A stretch of 64,000 bases of DNA from Pseudanabaena sp. UWO311 (lineage in GTDB: Bacteria > Cyanobacteriota > Cyanobacteriia > Pseudanabaenales > Pseudanabaenaceae), in assembly GCF_006937785.1 (NCBI RefSeq), contig NZ_SJEE01000021.1, forward strand, positions 1 through 64,000, in the 5' to 3' direction. The notes under the pieces were generated by a model that worked only from the letters and a program-made list of their open reading frames with translations, made no database searches and was not told the DNA's origin. Made by a program: the position numbers and the translations under genes. Below are positions 37,235-47,765 of the stretch, piece after piece (within the stretch, counting starts at the first letter, position 1; each line of letters opens with the position of its first letter).

Positions 37235-38878
37235 TTAGAACTGATAGCCCAAACTGAAATAAAAGGCGGATTCTTGTAGATTAGAGCCGCGATCGCTGAG
37301 ATTGACAAAGGGGATTGCATAATCTAATCGCATATTTAATCGTTCTAATGGTGTAAATAGCAATCCCACTCCACCGCCAGCTAAAAAGTTTTGACTAGGT
37401 AAAGTGTTTGGATTATTGGGATGATTCCAGATTGCCCCAGTATCTAGAAATGGAATGACTTGCAACAATGTTGCACCTAAGTCATTGCGGAGTGCCACAA
37501 AGCGATTTTCTAGGGAGAATCGAATTCCATTATCTCCAGTACGGGCATTTTGGCGAAATCCTCGCAAAGACTGACCACCGCCGATTGTAAATTGCTGCGA
37601 AGATAACAGCGGATCGGCAGATAGTTGCAGATCTAAAGCGCCAATCAGTAATGAATCTGTCCCCAAGGACTGCACACGCTGAATCTGTCCTAGCCAGCTT
37701 AGGAAGGAGCCACTCGGTGTTGTGACATTGGTGGAGCCAAATAAACCTGTGCCTATACTAAACTGCGATCGCAATGACCAAGCTCCTGCAAGATCGCGTA
37801 AGGTATAGTCTTGACCAAATTTGATTACACTAGTGCGAGTTGTCCCATCTGGCTCTGGCCCAATGCCAAAGGGTGTAGCCAGATTATTAAAAGCAAATGT
37901 TTGTCCTCTTTGATAGCTATAACCAATGGATAAAGCAAATTCTTCTACACTTGACCTAATTAAAGGCTGACGAAAATTCAAGTCAAAGAGATTGCTATTG
38001 CCGCGAATATTTAGGACATCAAATGGAGCTTGAGTGATTCGATAGTTGCTGGGAGAATATCGCAATGACAGGGTTCCATTCATGGGATTGAGTGGAATAT
38101 TGTATGAGAGATCATATTGATTGGAGCCTCCTGTCGTTGTTCCGTAATAGGAAGCTGCTAATGTGTCGCCATTGCCAGAAAGGTTTCTAAAGAATAGTCC
38201 TCCACCATAGCGTTCTGAGCCCACAGCAGGAGGAGAGAAGTTATCGATACTAGCAAATCCACCAAACTGATTTGCTTCTTTAACTGTAACCACAAGAATA
38301 CTGCTATCGGGCTGACTTCCTGATTTTAAACTTGCTTCAATATCGCTAAATATGGGATCTGCTCGTAACAAACGCAACTGATCTTCAAGTTTGGCAGTGT
38401 TAAGAGGTGTGCCAGTACCTAATTCCAATCGCGATCGCACATAATCTGGATTGGTATTTTTTAAGCCAACTATTTCAATTTTCTCGACTTTACCTTCAAT
38501 AACTTTAATAGTGACTATGCCATTAGCAGTTTTCTCTGTATCAACTACTGCTTGTGAAGTTATGTATCCGCGATCTGCATAGATTTGTGTAACTGATTGA
38601 GCTATTTTTTCGATCTGCTCAGGAGTTACTTGTTGCCCTTCTCCAGTTTTGGCGATCGCAGCTATCTCGGCACTAGTTAAGATTGTGCTACCAATAATTT
38701 CAACTTTTTTGACTGCGATCGCTTGAGCAATTGGTGACGAGACTACAGGCGATGGATTTGGTAGGGAAACGCGCGAATTAATCTTCTCTGCTGCTGCCAT
38801 TTCTACAGAGCCAAGGAGCATAAAGCTCACAGCGAACAGATTTGAGCGATGATGACTAATTAGTTTAAATAAGCTCAT
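37235..38878 (-). CDS. two-partner secretion outer-membrane transporter (TpsB, ShlB/FhaC/HecB family)
   Basis: 547 aa from ATG 38878 (MSLFKLISHH), where a signal peptide begins (LFAVSFMLLGSVEMAAA). A short linker is followed by two POTRA domains: KKVEIIGSTILTSAEIAAIAKTGEGQQVTPEQIEKIAQSVTQIYADRGYITSQAVV, then GKVEKIEIVGLKNTNPDYVRSRLELGTGTPLN. A 16-strand barrel comes next, with FGGFASIDNFSPPAVGSERYGGG and the FhaC-type motif QQFTIGGGQSLRGFRQNARTGDNG (the VRGY/LRGF motif). It ends in an aromatic (GYQF). Exports the TpsA protein encoded divergently 299 bp away. Confidence 0.95.
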   Translation of the reverse strand: MSLFKLISHHRSNLFAVSFMLLGSVEMAAAEKINSRVSLPNPSPVVSSPIAQAIAVKKVEIIGSTILTSAEIAAIAKTGEGQQVTPEQIEKIAQSVTQIYADRGYITSQAVVDTEKTANGIVTIKVIEGKVEKIEIVGLKNTNPDYVRSRLELGTGTPLNTAKLEDQLRLLRADPIFSDIEASLKSGSQPDSSILVVTVKEANQFGGFASIDNFSPPAVGSERYGGGLFFRNLSGNGDTLAASYYGTTTGGSNQYDLSYNIPLNPMNGTLSLRYSPSNYRITQAPFDVLNIRGNSNLFDLNFRQPLIRSSVEEFALSIGYSYQRGQTFAFNNLATPFGIGPEPDGTTRTSVIKFGQDYTLRDLAGAWSLRSQFSIGTGLFGSTNVTTPSGSFLSWLGQIQRVQSLGTDSLLIGALDLQLSADPLLSSQQFTIGGGQSLRGFRQNARTGDNGIRFSLENRFVALRNDLGATLLQVIPFLDTGAIWNHPNNPNTLPSQNFLAGGGVGLLFTPLERLNMRLDYAIPFVNLSDRGSNLQESAFYFSLGYQF

Positions 38879-39176
38879 GCTAATAATATCAATTTTGGAT
38901 AGCGACAGTTCATCAAAGAATAACTTGAGATTGGAGATTTGAGGCATATTTTTTTACTTCTTAGTGTTCAATACACAAAAGTTAATACGATTTACAACAT
39001 TTCTCAGATGTTTCAATGTTATAAAAGTTTTTTGTCATGCGCTCACAGTTCTATGATTTGAAAGATTAAGATCTGGTATAAGCATCCTCTCAATTAAAAT
39101 AATTAAAAGCGGTTAAAATAGCTAAGAATAGTTACAGAATAATATTCATTTCAACTTATAACAAAGGAGAAGCTCA

Positions 39177-41663
39177 ATGTCTTTAGTTGTCAAGAGTAAT
39201 TTTACGCAAATTAGACGAGCAGCGATCGCATTGCTATTGATGCAACCCTTTGTTATGGGAAGTGAAGCATTTGCTCAGTCAATTGTGCCAACTCAAGGCT
39301 CAGGTAATTTAGGAACACAAGTAGCCCCTGATATTACTAACGCTCAACAATTAAATATCACAGGTGGCACACAAGCCGCCGCAAATCTCTATCACAGTTT
39401 CCAGCAATTTGGCTTAACTCAGGGAGAGATTGCTAACTTTATGTCCAATCCCAGCATTCAGAATATTCTGGCGCGGGTGTCTGGTGGTAATGCTTCGGTA
39501 ATTAATGGACTAGTTCAGGTTACGGGTGGTAATTCTAATCTCTATTTATTAAATCCTGCGGGAATTATTTTTGGTGCGAATTCTAGTTTGAATGTTCCTG
39601 CGGCGTTCACAGCAACTACAGCAAATGGAATTCAAGTGGGAAATGGTTGGTTTGGAGTAAATACTGGGATTGATGATGTCAAGAAGTTAACTGGAACTCC
39701 TCAAGCTTTTGGCTTTGCTAGTTCTACTACGATGCCAACGAATGAGCAACCTGCTGCGATCGTTAATGCTGGCAATCTCACTGCTAAAGAAGGACAGAGC
39801 ATTACTCTCGTAGGTGGTTTGGTAATTAATACGGGCACCATTACTTCACCATCAGGCAAAATCACGATCGCTGCATCAGCAGATGGAAAATACGTCAAAA
39901 TCACACCTGAAGGAAGCTTGCTGAGTTTGCAACTACCGATCGCTGATCAGAATCAATTAGCGCAGTCAAATGTTCAGGCTAAGGATCTACCAAGTCTACT
40001 GACTGGTTCTGCAAACCTTCGGAATATGACGGGTTTAAATACTGATGCATCAGGCAATGTGCTTGTCGCTGGCATAGCAATTCCTAATACTGCGGGAACT
40101 GCAATCGCTTCAGGCAATCTCGATGTGTCAAGCACTACGGCTAAAGGTGGTGAGATTAATGTCTTAGGCGATCGCGTTGGTCTAGTTTCTGCAAATCTCA
40201 ATGCTTCGGGTGCGATCGGTGGCGGCACTGTCCTCATAGGTGGAGATTTACAAGGAAAAGGGATAGTTCCTAATGCCCAATATACTTTTGTGAGTAAAGA
40301 CTCAACAATTCTTGCAGATGCACTCCAAAGTGGTAATGGTGGCAAAGTGATTGCTTGGGCAGATCTGGCAACCACATTTTTAGGAAGCATCTCTGCAAAA
40401 GGTGGTTTAGTTATTGGTAATGGCGGCTTTGTCGAAGTATCGGGTAAAGAGAACTTACTGTTTCAAGGGAAAGTGAATACAACAGCCTTGAATGGGTTAG
40501 CTGGAACACTCTTGCTTGATCCAGCTAACATTACTATTAGCAGTGCGGCAAGTAGTGGAGGCGTTGCTGCGCAACTTTTATTAGGTGCAAACCCAACAAT
40601 CCCGTCTTCTTTTTTAGCTGGAACTGATATCAACATTCAAGATTCCGATCTTCGTGGTGTAGCAGGCAATGTTGTCCTGCAAGCAACTAACAACATCACC
40701 CTTGATAGCTCTACAACTTTCAACAATACTCAAGCTACTTCTATTACTTTTCAAGCTGGAAATGACATTAATATCAATGTCCCCAATTTTGGTTTTGATT
40801 TTGGTGGCGGAAATACTCAGTCTTTGAGCTTTATTGCTGGTCGAGATATTAATGTCGATACTAGTTTAATCGACACTGATGGGTTTAGTTCTTCGTTTTT
40901 CTTTGATTCAACGGTCAGTCCCACGCTTACACTTACTGCTCAGAATCGGAATGTTAATATCACTGGAAATTTCTTGATTCGCAACAGCCCAGCGGAAGCA
41001 GGTGTCACCTTGAATTTGAATGCACCCAATGGTGCTGTGCTAGTTAACAACGGTTTCTTACGAACTGGGCAAGTTTCGATGACAACTGATAGCATCATTA
41101 ACATTACGGCGGGGCAGTTTCGGGTAACGGGGACTCCGATAAATGGTGCTCCCACTTTTAATGGAGCAGTACAAAATACGAAGTACAGTATTTATACTTT
41201 TTCCGCAAATGCAAACTTAGCTTCTCAAGGGAATGTTTCCCTGCAATTTGGTAATGCAGCTCCTATTATTTCTGGTAATGGAGGTAATAATTTGATCAAT
41301 ATCCGCCTTCTCAATGACAGCAATTTTGTAGTTGGCAAAACTCCGACAACCAGTGGTGTCGATGGTCAAATTGGCATTGGCATTGCGAGTATTCCACCTC
41401 AAGTTTTTACTTTACTTTCTGACCAGTCATTTACCTCTAATACTGGGCTGGCGAGTACCTTGGCTGCTAATACTTTGAATAGTGATGCGATCGCATCTGC
41501 ACGGACGGCTGACTTGCAAGCAAATGCTGGTGAAATTAAGGACTGCGAACCTACTGGGACAAAGAAACCAATTCTGAATTTCACGGCTTCTTTGCCTTCG
41601 GCGACAGTAACTCGCACTGCCCAAAATCCAAATCGCTCTAAATTGCCACCATGCAAAGAATAA
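39177..41663 (+). CDS. two-partner secretion exoprotein (TpsA, filamentous haemagglutinin N-terminal domain)
   Basis: 828 residues. Ribosome-binding site AAAGGAG precedes ATG 39177. Signal peptide ending ...GSEAFAQ (about residue 34). The TPS domain (about 35-290) has GTQVAPDITNAQQLNITGGTQAAANLYHSFQQF, SGGNASVINGLVQVTGGNSNLYLLNPAGIIFGANSSLNV (NPxGI element) and FTATTANGI. The rest is a repetitive beta-helix rich in Gly/Asn/Thr. The only two cysteines visible in the mature chain are at 790 and 826, near the C-terminus (KDCEPTGTKK, LPPCKE). Compared with large adhesins it is short. The partner transporter is divergent; a CHAT protease follows 9 bp downstream. Confidence 0.94.
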   Translation: MSLVVKSNFTQIRRAAIALLLMQPFVMGSEAFAQSIVPTQGSGNLGTQVAPDITNAQQLNITGGTQAAANLYHSFQQFGLTQGEIANFMSNPSIQNILARVSGGNASVINGLVQVTGGNSNLYLLNPAGIIFGANSSLNVPAAFTATTANGIQVGNGWFGVNTGIDDVKKLTGTPQAFGFASSTTMPTNEQPAAIVNAGNLTAKEGQSITLVGGLVINTGTITSPSGKITIAASADGKYVKITPEGSLLSLQLPIADQNQLAQSNVQAKDLPSLLTGSANLRNMTGLNTDASGNVLVAGIAIPNTAGTAIASGNLDVSSTTAKGGEINVLGDRVGLVSANLNASGAIGGGTVLIGGDLQGKGIVPNAQYTFVSKDSTILADALQSGNGGKVIAWADLATTFLGSISAKGGLVIGNGGFVEVSGKENLLFQGKVNTTALNGLAGTLLLDPANITISSAASSGGVAAQLLLGANPTIPSSFLAGTDINIQDSDLRGVAGNVVLQATNNITLDSSTTFNNTQATSITFQAGNDININVPNFGFDFGGGNTQSLSFIAGRDINVDTSLIDTDGFSSSFFFDSTVSPTLTLTAQNRNVNITGNFLIRNSPAEAGVTLNLNAPNGAVLVNNGFLRTGQVSMTTDSIINITAGQFRVTGTPINGAPTFNGAVQNTKYSIYTFSANANLASQGNVSLQFGNAAPIISGNGGNNLINIRLLNDSNFVVGKTPTTSGVDGQIGIGIASIPPQVFTLLSDQSFTSNTGLASTLAANTLNSDAIASARTADLQANAGEIKDCEPTGTKKPILNFTASLPSATVTRTAQNPNRSKLPPCKE

Positions 41664-41672
41664 TTCGCTCCT

Positions 41673-44093
41673 ATGAAAAGTAAAGGCTTTGCGATCGCCA
41701 TCTTATTTGCAATTGGCTTAACATCGCCGATCGCAGTATTGGCAGCAGGAATTCAGAATCCTACGATCCCATCTCAAGATGCGCGATCATCCGCAGATGA
41801 GCTTGTCCAGACTGGGTTACAGCAATTTCGAGCACAAAAGTTTGATCTTGCGATCGCGAGTTGGCTGCAAGCACTAAACCTCTATCAGCAGCAAAAAAAT
41901 ATTAAGGGCGCAATAGATGTCCTTGGGGGCTTAGCAGAAGCATCTAAACAGCTCAGCAAATACGAACAAGCGATCGCTTACTCACAGCAATTGCTAGCTT
42001 TAGCACAAAGTCTAGGCGATCGCCGCACTGAAGCCAATGCCCTCGGAAATTTGGGTAACAACTATCGCGTGGTCGGGAACTATGCCAAAGCTCTGGAAGT
42101 GCAAAACCAAGGATTAGCAATTAGAAAAGAACTAAACGATCAGCAAGGAGAAGGACAGGTTCTGGCTAGTCTTGGTAATATTCACTATGACCTTGGCAAT
42201 TACCGTGTAGCCGAGAGTTTTTTTCAGCTTAGTCTTAAAATTGCCAAGGCAGTAGGTAATGGCAATGGAATTGTTTCTTTGCTAAATAGTTTGGGTGCGA
42301 TCGCAGGTACACAAGAAGAATATCCCCAAGCAATCAAGTATTATCAGGAAAGCCTTGCTAACGCGAGAAAAATTGGTTTTCGAGAAGCAGAAGGAAACGC
42401 GCTGAATAATATCGGCTCTAACTATCATGTTCAGCGCAAATATAAAGAAGCAATTTCGTATTACGAGCAAGCATTAACCGTTGCTAAGGAACTTAAAAAT
42501 CCTCGTATGGAAGGAGCCGCAGTCGTTGGTATGGGGTTAGCCTATGTGTTTTTGGAAGAATACGACAAAGCTTTATTTTTGCAAGAGCAAAGCTGGCAGC
42601 TAGCCAAGCAAATCGGCGATCGTCGCTTAGAAGCAACGACTTTAGGCAATTGGGGCTATACACTTTGGCGATCACAAAAGTATGCAGAAGCAGAGCAGAA
42701 GTTTCTCACGAGTCTGAACCTATTGGAATCTCTGCGTTCTAACTTAAGTGATGGTGATAAGGTTTCGATTTTTGATACACAGCTTCATGCTTTTAATTTG
42801 TTGCAACAGATTATGGTTGCTCAGGGCAACCCTGAAGCAGCTTTAGAGATTGCCGAGAGAGGTCGAGCCCGTGCTTTTGCAGAGCTTCTCTCCCGTCGTG
42901 TCAGCTCAAGCTCTGCACCAAAAGCAGTACAGAAAAATGAAGCCATTATTCCATCTTTAGCACCTGTTAGTATTGCCGATATTCGTCGTATAGCAAAACA
43001 ACAGAATGCGGTAATGGTGGAATATTCTCTGATTGCTGATCCTAGCTTTATCGGTCAGGGAAAGCTTAAGGGTGAATTTATCAAGCTCTATATTTGGGTA
43101 GTGCAGCCTTCGGGTGCGATCGCGTTTCGTGAGGTTGATCTCAAAAAATCTGATGTTTCTATAGTGGATTTGGTTGCGGATATTCGCAGCTTGTTTAACG
43201 ATGCGAATGGAATTGTTCGAGATCCTAAGGAAGTACTAGAGAAGTATGGGGATCTCAAGCAATTATATGCAGTTCTGATTCAGCCAATCCAAGACTTACT
43301 GCCTAAAGATGCAAATACCAGAGTGATTTTCTTGCCTCAAGGATTGCTTTTCCTAGTTCCATTTGCAGCACTAATTAATTCTAAGGATCAATTCTTAATT
43401 GAGAAGCATACAGTCCAAATCGCTCCTGCTATTCAAGTTCTCGATTTCACTCACCAACTTAGACAACAAGTAAAAAAAGTTGATTTGCAGGAAGTTCTCA
43501 TAGTTGGCAATCCCACTATGCCTAGTCTCGGAAATCCGCCCACCCAATTACAAACTTTATTAGGAGCTGAAAAAGAGGCAAAAGCGATCGCAACTTTGCT
43601 AAATACTACTTTTTTGACAGGCGACAGCGCTACGAAAGTAGAAGTTGTTAGTAAGATGAAATCTGCTCGTTTTGTCCATCTCGCTACCCATGGACTATTA
43701 GAAGAATATCGTAAAGGCGATATCCCAGGTGCGATCGCCCTTGCACCTAGCTCAGGAGATGATGGATTTTTGACGGCTAGCGAAATTGTGACGATGCGGT
43801 TGAATGCGGAGATGGTGGTACTAAGTGCTTGCAAAACTGGACAAGGCTTATTAACGGGTGATGGTGTGATAGGGCTATCGCGATCGCTAATTAGCGCGGG
43901 TGTTCCCAGTGTTGTCGTGTCGCTATGGGCTGTACCTGATGAGCCAACAGCATTGCTAATGACCGAGTTTTATAAAAAGTTTCAGGCTGAACAGAACAAA
44001 GCGCAAGCCATTCGTCACGCTATGCTTGCCACCAAAGCTAAGTATCCTGACCCACTGAATTGGGCAGCATTTACATTAATCGGTGAGAATTAA
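41673..44093 (+). CDS. exported TPR-CHAT cysteine protease
   Basis: 806 residues. Signal peptide MKSKGFAIAILFAIGLTSPI... ending near LAAG (about residue 26). TPR repeats span about 45-370 (for example QLLALAQSLGDRRTEANALGNLGNNYRVVGNYAKALEVQNQGL, with further repeats of the FDLA/YEQA type). The C-terminal CHAT domain is about 430-806, with LPQGLLFLVPFAAL, ARFVHLATHGLLEE (catalytic His673) and AEMVVLSACKTGQGLLTGDGVIGLSRSLISAGVPSVVVSLW (catalytic Cys720). CHAT is a caspase-clan peptidase. It starts 9 bp after tpsA, so it is co-transcribed, and should act in the periplasm or outside the cell. Confidence 0.94.
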   Translation: MKSKGFAIAILFAIGLTSPIAVLAAGIQNPTIPSQDARSSADELVQTGLQQFRAQKFDLAIASWLQALNLYQQQKNIKGAIDVLGGLAEASKQLSKYEQAIAYSQQLLALAQSLGDRRTEANALGNLGNNYRVVGNYAKALEVQNQGLAIRKELNDQQGEGQVLASLGNIHYDLGNYRVAESFFQLSLKIAKAVGNGNGIVSLLNSLGAIAGTQEEYPQAIKYYQESLANARKIGFREAEGNALNNIGSNYHVQRKYKEAISYYEQALTVAKELKNPRMEGAAVVGMGLAYVFLEEYDKALFLQEQSWQLAKQIGDRRLEATTLGNWGYTLWRSQKYAEAEQKFLTSLNLLESLRSNLSDGDKVSIFDTQLHAFNLLQQIMVAQGNPEAALEIAERGRARAFAELLSRRVSSSSAPKAVQKNEAIIPSLAPVSIADIRRIAKQQNAVMVEYSLIADPSFIGQGKLKGEFIKLYIWVVQPSGAIAFREVDLKKSDVSIVDLVADIRSLFNDANGIVRDPKEVLEKYGDLKQLYAVLIQPIQDLLPKDANTRVIFLPQGLLFLVPFAALINSKDQFLIEKHTVQIAPAIQVLDFTHQLRQQVKKVDLQEVLIVGNPTMPSLGNPPTQLQTLLGAEKEAKAIATLLNTTFLTGDSATKVEVVSKMKSARFVHLATHGLLEEYRKGDIPGAIALAPSSGDDGFLTASEIVTMRLNAEMVVLSACKTGQGLLTGDGVIGLSRSLISAGVPSVVVSLWAVPDEPTALLMTEFYKKFQAEQNKAQAIRHAMLATKAKYPDPLNWAAFTLIGEN

Positions 44094-44127
44094 AAAAGGG
44101 GGGCGCAACGCGCCCCCCTTTTTTTAT
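44091..44127. terminator. palindromic terminator between chat and petN, AAC loop
   Basis: AAAAAAGGGGGGCGC-AAC-GCGCCCCCCTTTTTTT begins at the CHAT stop and ends 3 bp before the petN stop on the other strand; suits both genes. Confidence 0.85.
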
Positions 44128-44129
44128 TC

Positions 44130-44219
44130 TTATAGACCGTTGCGTCCCCAGACGACAAAAGCGATCGAAAGTGTAAACATACCAAGCACGCCAAACCAAC
44201 CCAATGACAAGATATCCAT
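44130..44219 (-). CDS. petN: cytochrome b6f complex subunit PetN (29 aa)
   Basis: Reading the minus strand from ATG 44219 to TAA 44130 gives [19 protein letters not shown] followed by [10 protein letters not shown], 29 residues. This is the PetN pattern: MDI-L-x-LGW, a single membrane helix, and the conserved end VVWGRNGL. PetN is a small subunit needed for stability of the b6f complex in the thylakoid. It is embedded between the CHAT and DUF928 genes on the opposite strand, and its stop abuts the shared terminator. Confidence 0.95.
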
Positions 44220-44286
44220 AGTTTCGTAACAATTTTAATAAATTTTTCTAATTATCATAATATGCTTTACCGCCAAAAACAATTTT

Positions 44287-44366
44287 ATTGAAAGTCCGCC
44301 GACAGCGGACTTTCAATGAAACTAAATAAGTAAGAATAGGCGGCGCTTTGCGCCGCCTATTCTTAC
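44287..44366. repeat. two palindromes in the divergent petN-DUF928 gap
   Basis: ATTGAAAGTCCGC-CGACA-GCGGACTTTCAAT (44287-44317) and GTAAGAATAGGCGGCGC-TTT-GCGCCGCCTATTCTTAC (44330-44366). Both lie upstream of petN and upstream of the DUF928 gene, so neither is a 3'-end terminator. The rest of 44220-44527 has no ORF; GAGGCGATCGCATC precedes the DUF928 start. Confidence 0.8.
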
Positions 44367-44527
44367 CATATAAATCCTTTCCTAAAGTTAAGTCGAATGT
44401 CTATAGCAACTTTTTGATAAGAGATGCATTCTTTATTAGTATCTAACTATCTCATGGGTATTATTAGGTGATGAGCTAAACTGCACACCATACCCATACA
44501 GATCACTTTTCTAGAGGCGATCGCATC

Positions 44528-45355
44528 ATGTTTTTATCCAAATTTGCATCAAAAAAGATTTTAATAGCATCGGCTTGCTCTTGTTTAGCTGTAAGTACAG
44601 TAGCCTTGCCCTTGTCTTTGAGTCTTTTTACCCCTTTAGCTCAAGCTCAGTCTCGCAGGGTTCGCTATACCCCACCTAGCAATCTTGGTACTCCTATAGT
44701 CTCAACTCCAGGTGCTACTCGGAGTGTTTGTGAAACGACAGAAGCTTGTCTAATTGGGCTAGTTCCAGACTTAAAAGCAGAAAATGCTCCTGTCCCTCAG
44801 ACGATTTCCGAAAGTCCAACATTTTATTTCCTCATTCCAGAAACTGATGGTCGAGGGTACTTTTATCTTTCTGAAGCCGATAGTTCATTACCTGAAGGTA
44901 AACGAGTTTACCGCACATCTTTTAAGGTCAAAAGCAAGGCAGGTATTCTCGCTTTTAAAATGCCTACTGTTAAAGGGGCTTCAATCTTAAAACTTGACAA
45001 AACCTATGTATGGAAATTTACAGTTGGAGGTTTAACTGATTCTGGGACAGTGCGCGGCTCTATTCGCCGAGTTTTGCCAAGCCCAAATTTAGTTGTTCAA
45101 CTCAAAAAAGCCTTGCTACCTTTAGATCGAGCTGCTTTGTTTGCTCAAGAGGGAATCTGGTTTGAAACTGTCCAAACTTTGGCTGATGCTCAGCAAGGTA
45201 TTTCTAAAAAGCCAGAGATTGTCAGTGAATGGAATGATTTACTGAAATCAGCTAAGCTAGATCGTGTTCTTCCATATTCATTTTTGAAAGGCGTAGTCTT
45301 AAGTGAGCCGACTTCTGAGCGCACTTCGCCACCTAAACAGAGCTACGTCTATTAG
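44528..45355 (+). CDS. exported DUF928 protein
   Basis: 275 residues. Signal peptide with a long hydrophobic core (ILIASACSCLAVSTVALPLSLSLF) and cleavage near PLAQAQ (about 41). The mature protein has the DUF928 pattern: RRVRYTPPSNLGTPIVSTPGATRSVC, LIGLVPDLK, SPTFYFLIPETDGRGYFYLSEAD, LDKTYVWKFTVGG and the C-terminal helical block LLPLDRAALFAQEGIWFETVQTLAD. DUF928 is largely restricted to cyanobacteria and often sits beside CHAT, haemagglutinin and CHASE2 genes. Probably periplasmic; function unknown. Confidence 0.92.
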   Translation: MFLSKFASKKILIASACSCLAVSTVALPLSLSLFTPLAQAQSRRVRYTPPSNLGTPIVSTPGATRSVCETTEACLIGLVPDLKAENAPVPQTISESPTFYFLIPETDGRGYFYLSEADSSLPEGKRVYRTSFKVKSKAGILAFKMPTVKGASILKLDKTYVWKFTVGGLTDSGTVRGSIRRVLPSPNLVVQLKKALLPLDRAALFAQEGIWFETVQTLADAQQGISKKPEIVSEWNDLLKSAKLDRVLPYSFLKGVVLSEPTSERTSPPKQSYVY

Positions 45356-45359
45356 TAAT

Positions 45360-45398
45360 GGTAAGGAAGGTCGGAGCTTTGCTCCGACCTTCCTTACC
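45360..45398. terminator. palindrome between DUF928 and cyclase genes, TTT loop
   Basis: GGTAAGGAAGGTCGGAGC-TTT-GCTCCGACCTTCCTTACC, 18-bp perfect stem, 22 bp before the cyclase start. It could limit read-through or control cyclase translation. Confidence 0.75.
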
Positions 45399-45419
45399 TG
45401 TTTAAATATTTCCGAGTAT

Positions 45420-47723
45420 ATGGCAATTAGATCTCGATTTAAGAACAGCTTGTGGAAATGGCGCGGGATTGCGATCGCTGCGCCGACAATTTCCCTATTG
45501 GTGATCGGGTTACGGCTAATTGGAGCACTTGAATCGCTTGAATTAGCCATGCTCGATCAGTTTTTTCGATGGCGATCGTCTGAACCTACAGATCAACGGA
45601 TCGTGATTATTGGCATTGATGAAGCTGATATACGCCAATACCAATGGCCGATTGATGACGCTTTATTGACAACGTTGTTAGATAAAGTCAGGCAACAAAA
45701 GCCGCGTGCGATCGGCTTAGATCTAGTTCGAGACAAAACAGATAATGCTGGCTATCCCCAATTAGAAAAACTATTTAAGACCACTCCTAATTTGATAGGA
45801 GCTTACAAAACATCTGATTTAGTTACGTCAAATTTCTCGGTTTCAGACATTAAACCTCCGCCTGCGCTTGCCCAACTGGATCAAATTGGTGCAATCAATC
45901 TTGTCCACGATGGAGATGGTCGTCTTCGTCGTGGATTACTATCCTTGAGTTTACCTGATGGCAAAGTGGGGCTTAGTTTTGGTTTGCAACTAGCCTTACT
46001 CTATCTGGATGAGGAAAAAACTATTCCCCTTGAACAAATTGAGCAAGCTCTAAAGCCTCCAAAATTAAGAGCTAATGATGGTGGTTATAATCGAATTGAC
46101 GTGGGAGGACATCAATTTATAATTAATTACCGTCGATCACTTCAAGGTTTTCAGACTGTGCGAATGGCGGATGTATTGGAGGGGAAAATAGCACCAGATT
46201 TATTCCGCGATCGCATCGTGATGATTGGGGTAACTGCTGTAAGTATTAGGGATTGGTTTTTCACTCCTCTGGATGGTGGATTTGGCAGTACAAGAATTTT
46301 GACCGCAGGAATAGAAGTTCATTCTCAGATTGTGAGTCATATACTTAGCAGCACTCTTGATGGCAGAGCCACAATCCAGACATGGGATAAACCTTGGGAA
46401 TGGCTGTGGATTTTTGGTTGGTCTTTAGCTGGTTCTTTTTTGATTTGGCAATGGCGGAACGTTAAGACTAGCAACCTAGACTTTCTGGTGATAGTTTTGC
46501 GATTGCCCATTGTCCTAGGGCTGACATTAGGCTTAGTTGGTTCTTGTTTCATCGCCCTTAGCTATGGTTGGTGGTTGCCTTTTGTACCTGCGGCGATCGC
46601 GTTTATTGGTGGTGGGGTGATTGTCACTAGCTATCTAGCAATTACGGCGGCGCAAATTCGCACTTACTTTAGCCGCTATTTAACCGATGCCGTAGTTAAA
46701 AGTTTATTAGAAACGCCTGAGGGTCTAAAGCTAGGGGGAGATCGCCGCAAAGTCACAATTCTCATGTGTGACCTGCGCGGCTTTTCCACAATTTCCGAAA
46801 AGATGCCTCCTGAAAAAGTAGTGGAAATTCTCAATATTTTTCTTGGCACAATGACCGAGGCGATCGCGACTTACCAAGGCACGATTGATGAATTTATTGG
46901 CGATGCGATCTTAGTGCTATTTGGTGCGCCGATTTATCGTGAAGATGATGCGGTTCGGGCAGTAGCTAGTGCGATCGCTATGCAATTAGCCATGCGATCG
47001 GTGAATGAGAAACTCACTCAACAACAACTCCCTGAAATCGCGATGGGAATCGGTATTAATACAGGTGAAGTCGTTGCTGGTAATATCGGTTCTCAATCTC
47101 GCGCTAAATATGCTGTAGTTGGTAATCATGTGAATCTCACAGCGCGGATTGAATCCTATACTGTGGGTGGACAAATTTTAATATCGGAAGCTACTTACAA
47201 GGAAATTGAAGACATCGCTAAGATCAACGGATCGATGGAAGTAGAACCTAAAGGCGTATCACATCCAATTTCCATCTACGATATTTGTGGTCTTGGTGGA
47301 ATATATAATCTAGAACTTCCTTCTCTCAGCGACTCCTTACAATTGTTGCCAACTCCAATTCCAATCACCTATCGCATTTTAGAAGAGAAGCATTTAGGTA
47401 CAGAAATGTTTGAGGGAGAGCTAAAGCAGCTATCTCCCTATGGGGCGGAGATTTTCTCTGATCACGATGTTCCTGAATTAACTAATCTCAAACTACATCT
47501 CCAGATCTATGACCAAGATCAGCAACTAGAGATCGAAGGTGAAATCTATGCCAAAGTTTTAAAGCATCAGCACGAGCATCAAGTGATATCTGAGTCTCTA
47601 CCGCCTGCGGTCGCAACAGACATTTCTGCAAAGCGATCGCAATTTACTCAACCTATTTATGTCCATTTTACTACAGTACCGAATAATCTCAAAGATTGGA
47701 TTAGTCAGAAAACAAGTTGCTAA
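45420..47723 (+). CDS. CHASE2-domain class III nucleotide cyclase with PilZ-like tail
   Basis: 767 aa from ATG 45420 (MAIRSRFKNS); the frame open from 45303 overlaps DUF928. One N-terminal helix is followed by an extracytoplasmic CHASE2 domain (about 35-330: QRIVIIGIDEADIRQYQWP, GLDLVRD, RIVMIGVTAVSIRDWFFTP). Helices follow (LIWQWRN..., FIALSYGWWLPFVPAAIAFIGGGVIVTSYL), then the cyclase domain: ILMCDLRGFSTISEKMP and GTIDEFIGDAILVLFGAP carry both metal Asp. The substrate-specifying Lys is Glu (DEFIGD), as in guanylate cyclases. The C-terminal 120 residues include ELKQLSPYGAEIF, a PilZ-like xLSxxG motif. Same strand as DUF928, 64 bp apart. Confidence 0.9.
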   Translation: MAIRSRFKNSLWKWRGIAIAAPTISLLVIGLRLIGALESLELAMLDQFFRWRSSEPTDQRIVIIGIDEADIRQYQWPIDDALLTTLLDKVRQQKPRAIGLDLVRDKTDNAGYPQLEKLFKTTPNLIGAYKTSDLVTSNFSVSDIKPPPALAQLDQIGAINLVHDGDGRLRRGLLSLSLPDGKVGLSFGLQLALLYLDEEKTIPLEQIEQALKPPKLRANDGGYNRIDVGGHQFIINYRRSLQGFQTVRMADVLEGKIAPDLFRDRIVMIGVTAVSIRDWFFTPLDGGFGSTRILTAGIEVHSQIVSHILSSTLDGRATIQTWDKPWEWLWIFGWSLAGSFLIWQWRNVKTSNLDFLVIVLRLPIVLGLTLGLVGSCFIALSYGWWLPFVPAAIAFIGGGVIVTSYLAITAAQIRTYFSRYLTDAVVKSLLETPEGLKLGGDRRKVTILMCDLRGFSTISEKMPPEKVVEILNIFLGTMTEAIATYQGTIDEFIGDAILVLFGAPIYREDDAVRAVASAIAMQLAMRSVNEKLTQQQLPEIAMGIGINTGEVVAGNIGSQSRAKYAVVGNHVNLTARIESYTVGGQILISEATYKEIEDIAKINGSMEVEPKGVSHPISIYDICGLGGIYNLELPSLSDSLQLLPTPIPITYRILEEKHLGTEMFEGELKQLSPYGAEIFSDHDVPELTNLKLHLQIYDQDQQLEIEGEIYAKVLKHQHEHQVISESLPPAVATDISAKRSQFTQPIYVHFTTVPNNLKDWISQKTSC

Positions 47724-47765
47724 CCCAAAAGAAGGTTGCGGTGCGCCGCAACCTTCTTTTGGGTT
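47722..47765. terminator. bidirectional palindromic terminator
   Basis: AACCCAAAAGAAGGTTGCGG pairs with CCGCAACCTTCTTTTGGGTT around TGCG; the left arm contains part of the cyclase stop codon and the right arm ends 9 bp before the stop of the convergent GGDEF gene. Confidence 0.85.

Follow-up and report, generated by a model that had tools for sequence, protein, structure and literature searches.

A recurrent cyanobacterial envelope cassette of two-partner secretion, exported TPR-CHAT, DUF928, and CHASE2 genes, with a candidate role in adhesin release and sensing

Why should a two-partner secretion (TPS) gene pair, a protease with its own signal peptide, a DUF928 protein, and a CHASE2 receptor lie side by side in a cyanobacterium? 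We addressed this question for positions 37235-47723 of a 64,000-nucleotide stretch of Pseudanabaena sp. UWO311 (positions 1-64,000 of contig NZ_SJEE01000021.1; here, the window). The initial annotation had read the five genes as one envelope system in which a CHAT protease processes or releases the TpsA passenger, DUF928 is an accessory, and CHASE2 reports through a cyclic nucleotide. In a scan of nine genes at 35.9-51.3 kb, all five were found where that annotation had placed them and in the families it had named, each as a Pfam match above the curated cut-off (Table 1). The divergence of tpsB and tpsA (229 bp apart) and the 9-bp spacing from the tpsA stop to the CHAT start were also as described. 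The cassette is real and widespread. As to how it works, we consider the chances about even that it is a conserved cyanobacterial envelope cassette of two coupled pairs, in which CHAT cuts TpsA at its anchor while DUF928 and CHASE2 form a coupled sensor.

Conservation of the neighborhood was assessed in 80 stretches, each of at most 20 kb, from 41 other cyanobacterial genomes; these were anchored on the best-scoring DUF928 matches, a choice that may have introduced bias. CHASE2 was present in 51 stretches, CHAT in 39, TPS in 30, and ShlB in 15, with none of these in 17. Chance expectations from genome densities were 2.6 for CHASE2, 5.4 for CHAT, and 2.9 for TPS, and no simulation approached the observed counts. 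The clustering of the five families, which the earlier reading had noted in the window, is not due to chance. Anchoring on TPS instead gave 40 stretches, of which 21 contained CHAT, 8 DUF928, and 8 CHASE2. At the level of whole genomes, DUF928 was detected in 49 of 146 members of the phylum, and 48 of those 49 also had a TPS match (within the class, Fisher p 2e-12, to which genome size may contribute). The cassette also recurs in the genome that contains the window, which holds 10 DUF928, 13 TPS, 27 CHAT, 11 CHASE2, and 7 ShlB matches. Loci of this genome, read with local profiles, showed the cassette complete or nearly so at four further places: C27 (CHASE2-cyclase, TpsB, five TpsA, TPR-CHAT, and DUF928), C47 (TpsB, two TpsA, TPR-CHAT, DUF928, and CHASE2), C3 (TpsA, TPR-CHAT, DUF928, and a divergent CHASE2 kinase), and C6 (CHAT, DUF928, and CHASE2-cyclase). 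A partial version, C35, carries TpsB, TpsA, and TPR-CHAT.

Gene order points to two pairs within the cassette. Where TPS and CHAT lay within 3 kb of each other, both genes pointed the same way with CHAT second in 44 of 48 pairs, and roughly half of the pairs overlapped or were separated by no more than ~25 bp. DUF928 and CHASE2 were co-directional in 53 of 62 pairs, mostly at 110 bp or less, which makes DUF928 a better candidate for an operon partner of the receptor than for the TpsA accessory first proposed. In the window, 434 bp separate the CHAT and DUF928 genes, and because a terminator-like hairpin sits right behind the CHAT stop, tpsA-CHAT is probably transcribed separately from DUF928-CHASE2. 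A departure from the one-system claim is that CHASE2 was the sole partner at 16 of the 80 DUF928 loci, with neither TPS nor CHAT nearby.

We compared the trees of the partners by correlating their distances; to control for species history, members were shuffled (3,000 times) only among those of the same genome. Correlations were 0.50 for TPS-CHAT, 0.55 for CHAT-DUF928, and 0.63 for DUF928-CHASE2, values reached in 0 of 3,000 shuffles. The CHAT and CHASE2 trees were also correlated (r 0.36, p 0.0007), and the TPS and CHASE2 trees were not (r 0.10, p 0.11). Paralogous partners therefore co-diversify within genomes. The pattern fits a chain running TPS-CHAT-DUF928-CHASE2, but the genes usually lie in this order, and linkage by itself could produce the pattern.

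The protease is predicted to act outside the cytosol, in keeping with the initial annotation. A crude signal test was passed by 39 of the 48 nonfused TPR-CHATs, and those that failed mostly had a hydrophobic N terminus or a truncated or misplaced start. Cysteine content was low in exported CHATs, at 4.3 per 1,000 residues; the corresponding figures were 14.4 for the CHAT-like domains that receptors carry in the cytosol and 9.0 for other proteins of the window. The 806-residue window CHAT has a single cysteine, the catalytic Cys720. Both residues of the His673-Cys720 dyad are kept in all 51 aligned CHATs. Export would also fit the presence of CHAT fused to TpsA in seven open reading frames (ORFs).

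These seven single ORFs take at least two forms. In L174 and L178, a normal full TpsA tail that seems to stop just short of its last cysteine is joined to a TPR-CHAT without a signal peptide; in L056, L125, and L182, the end of the beta-helix is followed by a low-complexity linker and CHAT, the linker of L182 being a long Glu-Pro repeat, (EP)n. The window's own genome encodes TPS and CHAT in one ORF at C22 and C2 (1474 and 1454 residues), each with TpsB adjoining. The TPS domain of the window TpsA groups in the clade of the fusion proteins, which are its nearest neighbors. The idea that the window genes are a freshly split fusion was unsupported, the window CHAT being distant from the fused CHATs and having its own signal peptide. 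Two fusions have unusual architectures. At L056:7593-12017, a DUF4347 domain follows the TPS domain and precedes the repeats. The ORF at L080:4109-9577 begins with an in-frame glycosyltransferase family 2 domain and may be a fusion, a remnant, or a misassembly; its start is uncertain because of this opening stretch.

In the window, the exported TpsA has an N-terminal TPS domain and a cognate TpsB of the POTRA and Omp85 type, so genes for two-partner secretion (type Vb) are present and secretion is predicted. TpsA bodies are almost free of cysteine, and of the 28 TpsAs adjacent to CHAT, 26 have a two-Cys tail at the C terminus, in which the last cysteine is paired with one usually ~100 residues earlier; those of the window TpsA lie 39 and 3 residues from the end. 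At nine congeneric orthologous loci, where synteny was judged on short loci, the window-type tail is kept at eight and DUF928 follows CHAT at seven. The tail occurred in 0 of 7 TPS-CHAT fusions. It is also common where CHAT is not nearby (23 of 31 TpsAs) and so would mark an anchor rather than a CHAT site. In HMW1 and HxuA, a C-terminal tail of this kind is held to remain periplasmic, and in CdrA a cysteine hook is thought to act as an anchor, the periplasmic CdrA tail being cut by LapG (PMC5422565, PMC11898600). By analogy, we predict that the two-Cys tail of TpsA is a periplasmic anchor. GxGG(L/V)P was considered as a CHAT cleavage motif and rejected as evidence, since it was present in 16 of 31 TpsAs without CHAT nearby versus 19 of 28 with CHAT. 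A separate variant of TPS organization was seen in three single ORFs (L073:3-4325, L162:9597-13922, and L171:6027-10409), in which the passenger is fused to its own ShlB-type transporter, placing both partners in one polypeptide.

The receptor of the window combines a CHASE2 domain with a cytosolic cyclase, both above Pfam cut-offs. Cyclic nucleotide signaling, as first proposed, would apply to a single receptor type, since the receptors carry at least five kinds of output, of which the cyclase is one. Among the CHASE2 proteins at DUF928 loci, the outputs were cyclase in 14, an N-terminal CHAT-like domain in 12, histidine kinase in 11, AAA_35 in 2, three TIR domains in 1, and none assigned in 11. 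In the CHAT-like domain of receptors, one His and one Cys are invariant across all 16 aligned sequences. The three-TIR receptor belongs to an operon at L177:9518-19496, where TPS, TpsB, TPR-CHAT, and then the receptor run in one direction with gaps of <60 bp. Of the natural sequences in the PDB, 2w01 is the nearest to the window cyclase. Its PDB annotation is adenylate cyclase; we take 2w01 to be Cya2, reported as a guanylyl cyclase. Adenylyl cyclases usually carry Lys at a position where the window cyclase has Glu. From these two points, our guess is that its product is cyclic GMP. CHASE2-cyclases have a PilZ-like C terminus, with a match above the Pfam cut-off at L105:10287-12515 and below it in the window (47223-47720), where PilZ identity was not accepted; canonical cyclic di-GMP motifs were not evident in these C termini.

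For DUF928, a relatives search from one protein yielded seven loci, from Nostocales and an uncultured cyanobacterium. The window protein, modeled from 7 sequences, gave low confidence (mean predicted local distance difference test [pLDDT] 42), and a profile search of solved structures with DUF928 gave nothing credible. A relative, L196, modeled as an Ig/FN3-like sandwich with C-terminal helices (mean pLDDT 71). Its fold matches were middling: the best VIA Z was 8.7, with a root mean square deviation of 4.3 over 147 residues, to the C-terminal domain of MtxA (4z29), and the best Foldseek match was 8wae, a carbohydrate-binding module. Since this fold is common and the matches are middling, we read no function from it. 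Two tandem DUF928 genes occur at L060:5973-7799, in a 15-kb stretch with no CHASE2, CHAT, or TPS.

We propose the following model. In the first pair, TpsA would be exported through the TpsB pore and held on the surface by its two-Cys tail, anchored in the periplasm. TPR-CHAT would be exported to the periplasm, where its TPR part may recognize TpsA; cleavage near the anchor would then mature or release the adhesin, as LapG does for CdrA, and CHAT would be the cyanobacterial counterpart of LapG. Such processing is plausible given the fusions, the co-diversification, the Cys anchor, and the absence of LapG described below. In the fusions, CHAT would take the place of the Cys anchor, following either a low-complexity linker or a normal tail, and give a tethered, self-releasing version. 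In the second pair, periplasmic DUF928, with its predicted sandwich and helices, would partner the CHASE2 receptor, which may sense conditions at the surface or in the periplasm and pass this information on to an exchangeable output in the cytosol, a cyclase in the window. Coupling between the pairs, and its direction, are part of the proposal.

Several observations weigh against this model. Roughly half of the TPS loci lack a CHAT within 10 kb, Cys tails also occur on passengers away from CHAT, and the window TpsA lacks GxGG(L/V)P near its tail. The window CHAT is no close relative of the CHATs fused to the closest relatives of the window TpsA. A folded CHAT might go with TpsA to the surface instead of remaining periplasmic. 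Neighboring genes are inherited as a unit, so their trees may correlate even if the products do not touch, and the lack of correlation between TPS and CHASE2 leaves a direct link from TpsA to the receptor unsupported. This last result, together with the terminator between the pairs and the loci where CHASE2 is the sole partner of DUF928, would suit TPS-CHAT and DUF928-CHASE2 being separate modules, co-located through a shared envelope role, with CHAT handling TpsA and no signal arising from it. We regard such independence as possible, short of probable: CHAT trees correlate within genomes with those of both DUF928 and CHASE2, DUF928 is nearly confined to TPS-bearing genomes, and the L177 operon joins CHAT to a receptor. 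At the other extreme is a surface-to-cytosol proteolytic relay, in which contact with or damage to TpsA activates periplasmic CHAT, which acts through DUF928 and CHASE2 on an immunity-type cytosolic output (a second CHAT-like domain, TIR, cyclase, or kinase). Its layout would resemble that of animal extracellular protease cascades feeding TIR receptors; we consider it a long shot.

The role of CHAT itself may also be other than regulated release. Its position directly after tpsA is that of a dedicated chaperone, and TPR repeats bind polypeptides, so the TPR part could be a periplasmic TpsA chaperone, or CHAT could be a quality-control protease for stalled passengers. Both seem unlikely to us, as the dyad kept in every aligned CHAT argues that catalysis matters, and the linkage to DUF928-CHASE2 is left unexplained. 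A weapon is still harder to favor. CHAT could be the active end of a contact-dependent or defensive TpsA-CHAT effector, comparable to polymorphic toxins with C-terminal caspase domains: it stands at the C-terminal end of the fusions, and caspase-like domains of polymorphic toxins are releasing peptidases and sometimes toxins (PMC3482391). However, the CHAT domain stays conserved and is not swapped, most TPR-CHATs are separate proteins with their own signal peptides, the window TpsA gave no Pfam domain beyond TPS and hence neither a pretoxin nor a toxin domain, and no small immunity gene was seen in the window block. Contact-dependent inhibition and polymorphic toxin systems pair a variable C-terminal toxin domain with an immunity gene; here, the next gene is a conserved exported TPR-CHAT. 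An effector role thus appears quite improbable.

The closest functional parallel to the proposed cassette is CdrAB-LapG-LapD of Pseudomonas aeruginosa, which also has a TPS adhesin with a C-terminal Cys anchor, a periplasmic cysteine protease that releases the adhesin (a step that we propose by inference for the cassette), and a transmembrane second-messenger protein (PMC5422565, PMC11898600). The components differ: the protease here is a caspase-like CHAT with TPR, not LapG, and its gene lies inside the tps operon; the receptor is CHASE2 with swappable outputs, likely signaling inwards by family precedent, whereas LapD signals outwards; and DUF928 has no counterpart there. The LapG family (PF06035) was detected in 0 of 146 genomes, including that of the window, while a control search was positive in Caulobacter. 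We consider the best explanation to be a cassette that would work like CdrA-LapG-LapD yet stand outside that family. FHA (FhaB/FhaC) with SphB1 of Bordetella is likewise a TPS passenger whose surface release needs a dedicated protease, as we infer here; SphB1, in contrast, is a subtilisin autotransporter encoded elsewhere, whereas CHAT adjoins tpsA or is fused to it. Csx29, the TPR-CHAT of the type III-E CRISPR Craspase, shares the TPR and CHAT architecture and the His-Cys dyad. The cassette CHAT differs in having a signal peptide and a secreted beta-helical protein as partner, and no cas family, so no gRAMP/Cas7-11 partner, was among the Pfam matches of the nine scanned genes. Cyanobacterial CHASE2-metacaspase and CHASE2/DUF928/WD40 arrangements have been described (PMC2853523, PMC5587647), linking CHASE2 to a caspase-family domain and placing DUF928 beside CHASE2; TPS, TPR-CHAT, and interchangeable receptor outputs do not appear in the passages of those accounts consulted here. 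The open-access papers searched (subscription journals and preprints lay outside the scope) contained no description of an adhesin, exported CHAT, and CHASE2 pairing or of CHAT with hemagglutinin, TPS, or DUF928, and as far as it shows, the cassette is unreported.

Coordinates of the locus are collected in Table 1. The cyclase probably starts at the ATG at 45420 rather than at a GTG overlapping DUF928, because CHASE2 then begins at residue ~24, matching homologues. The gap between CHAT and DUF928 contains two more near-perfect hairpins (44287-44317 and 44329-44367), possibly small repeat elements.

Table 1. Features of the TPS, CHAT, DUF928, and CHASE2 locus (window positions)
Feature	Position	Strand	Basis
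tpsB, ShlB/FhaC-type outer-membrane transporter (POTRA + barrel)	37235-38947	-	Pfam ShlB 2e-30, POTRA_2 6e-17; Omp85 match too
tpsA, exported passenger, 828 aa	39177-41663	+	Pfam TPS 2.4e-32; TPS domain residues 46-270
TpsA C-terminal Cys790...Cys826 tail, predicted periplasmic anchor	41544-41654	+	Sole two Cys of TpsA
TPR-CHAT protease, 806 residues, CHAT domain 528-805	41673-44093	+	Pfam CHAT 4e-68, TPR_12 1.4e-48
TPR-CHAT signal peptide	~residues 1-25	+	N terminus of the protein
Catalytic His673 codon of CHAT	43689-43691	+	Alignment, 51/51 CHATs
Catalytic Cys720 codon of CHAT	43830-43832	+	Alignment, 51/51 CHATs; only Cys of protein
Strong terminator-like hairpin, also placed at 44092-44124, directly after CHAT stop	44086-44130	+	
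DUF928 protein with signal peptide	44528-45355	+	Pfam DUF928 9e-37
CHASE2 transmembrane receptor with class III cyclase output	45420-47723 (ORF opens 45303)	+	Pfam CHASE2 9e-68, Guanylate_cyc 4e-27
Perfect 20-nt inverted repeat closing the block, between convergent cyclase and GGDEF genes	47722-47765		

CHAT relatives described in the open-access literature searched act inside the cell. Cyanobacteria have many exported CHAT proteases, for which we propose a concrete role in the release of secreted adhesins, and the cassette supplies both a candidate substrate and a candidate receptor partner. It also places DUF928 for the first time in a structural and genomic setting. Together, these data suggest that LapG-type adhesin release may have a second, caspase-like solution.

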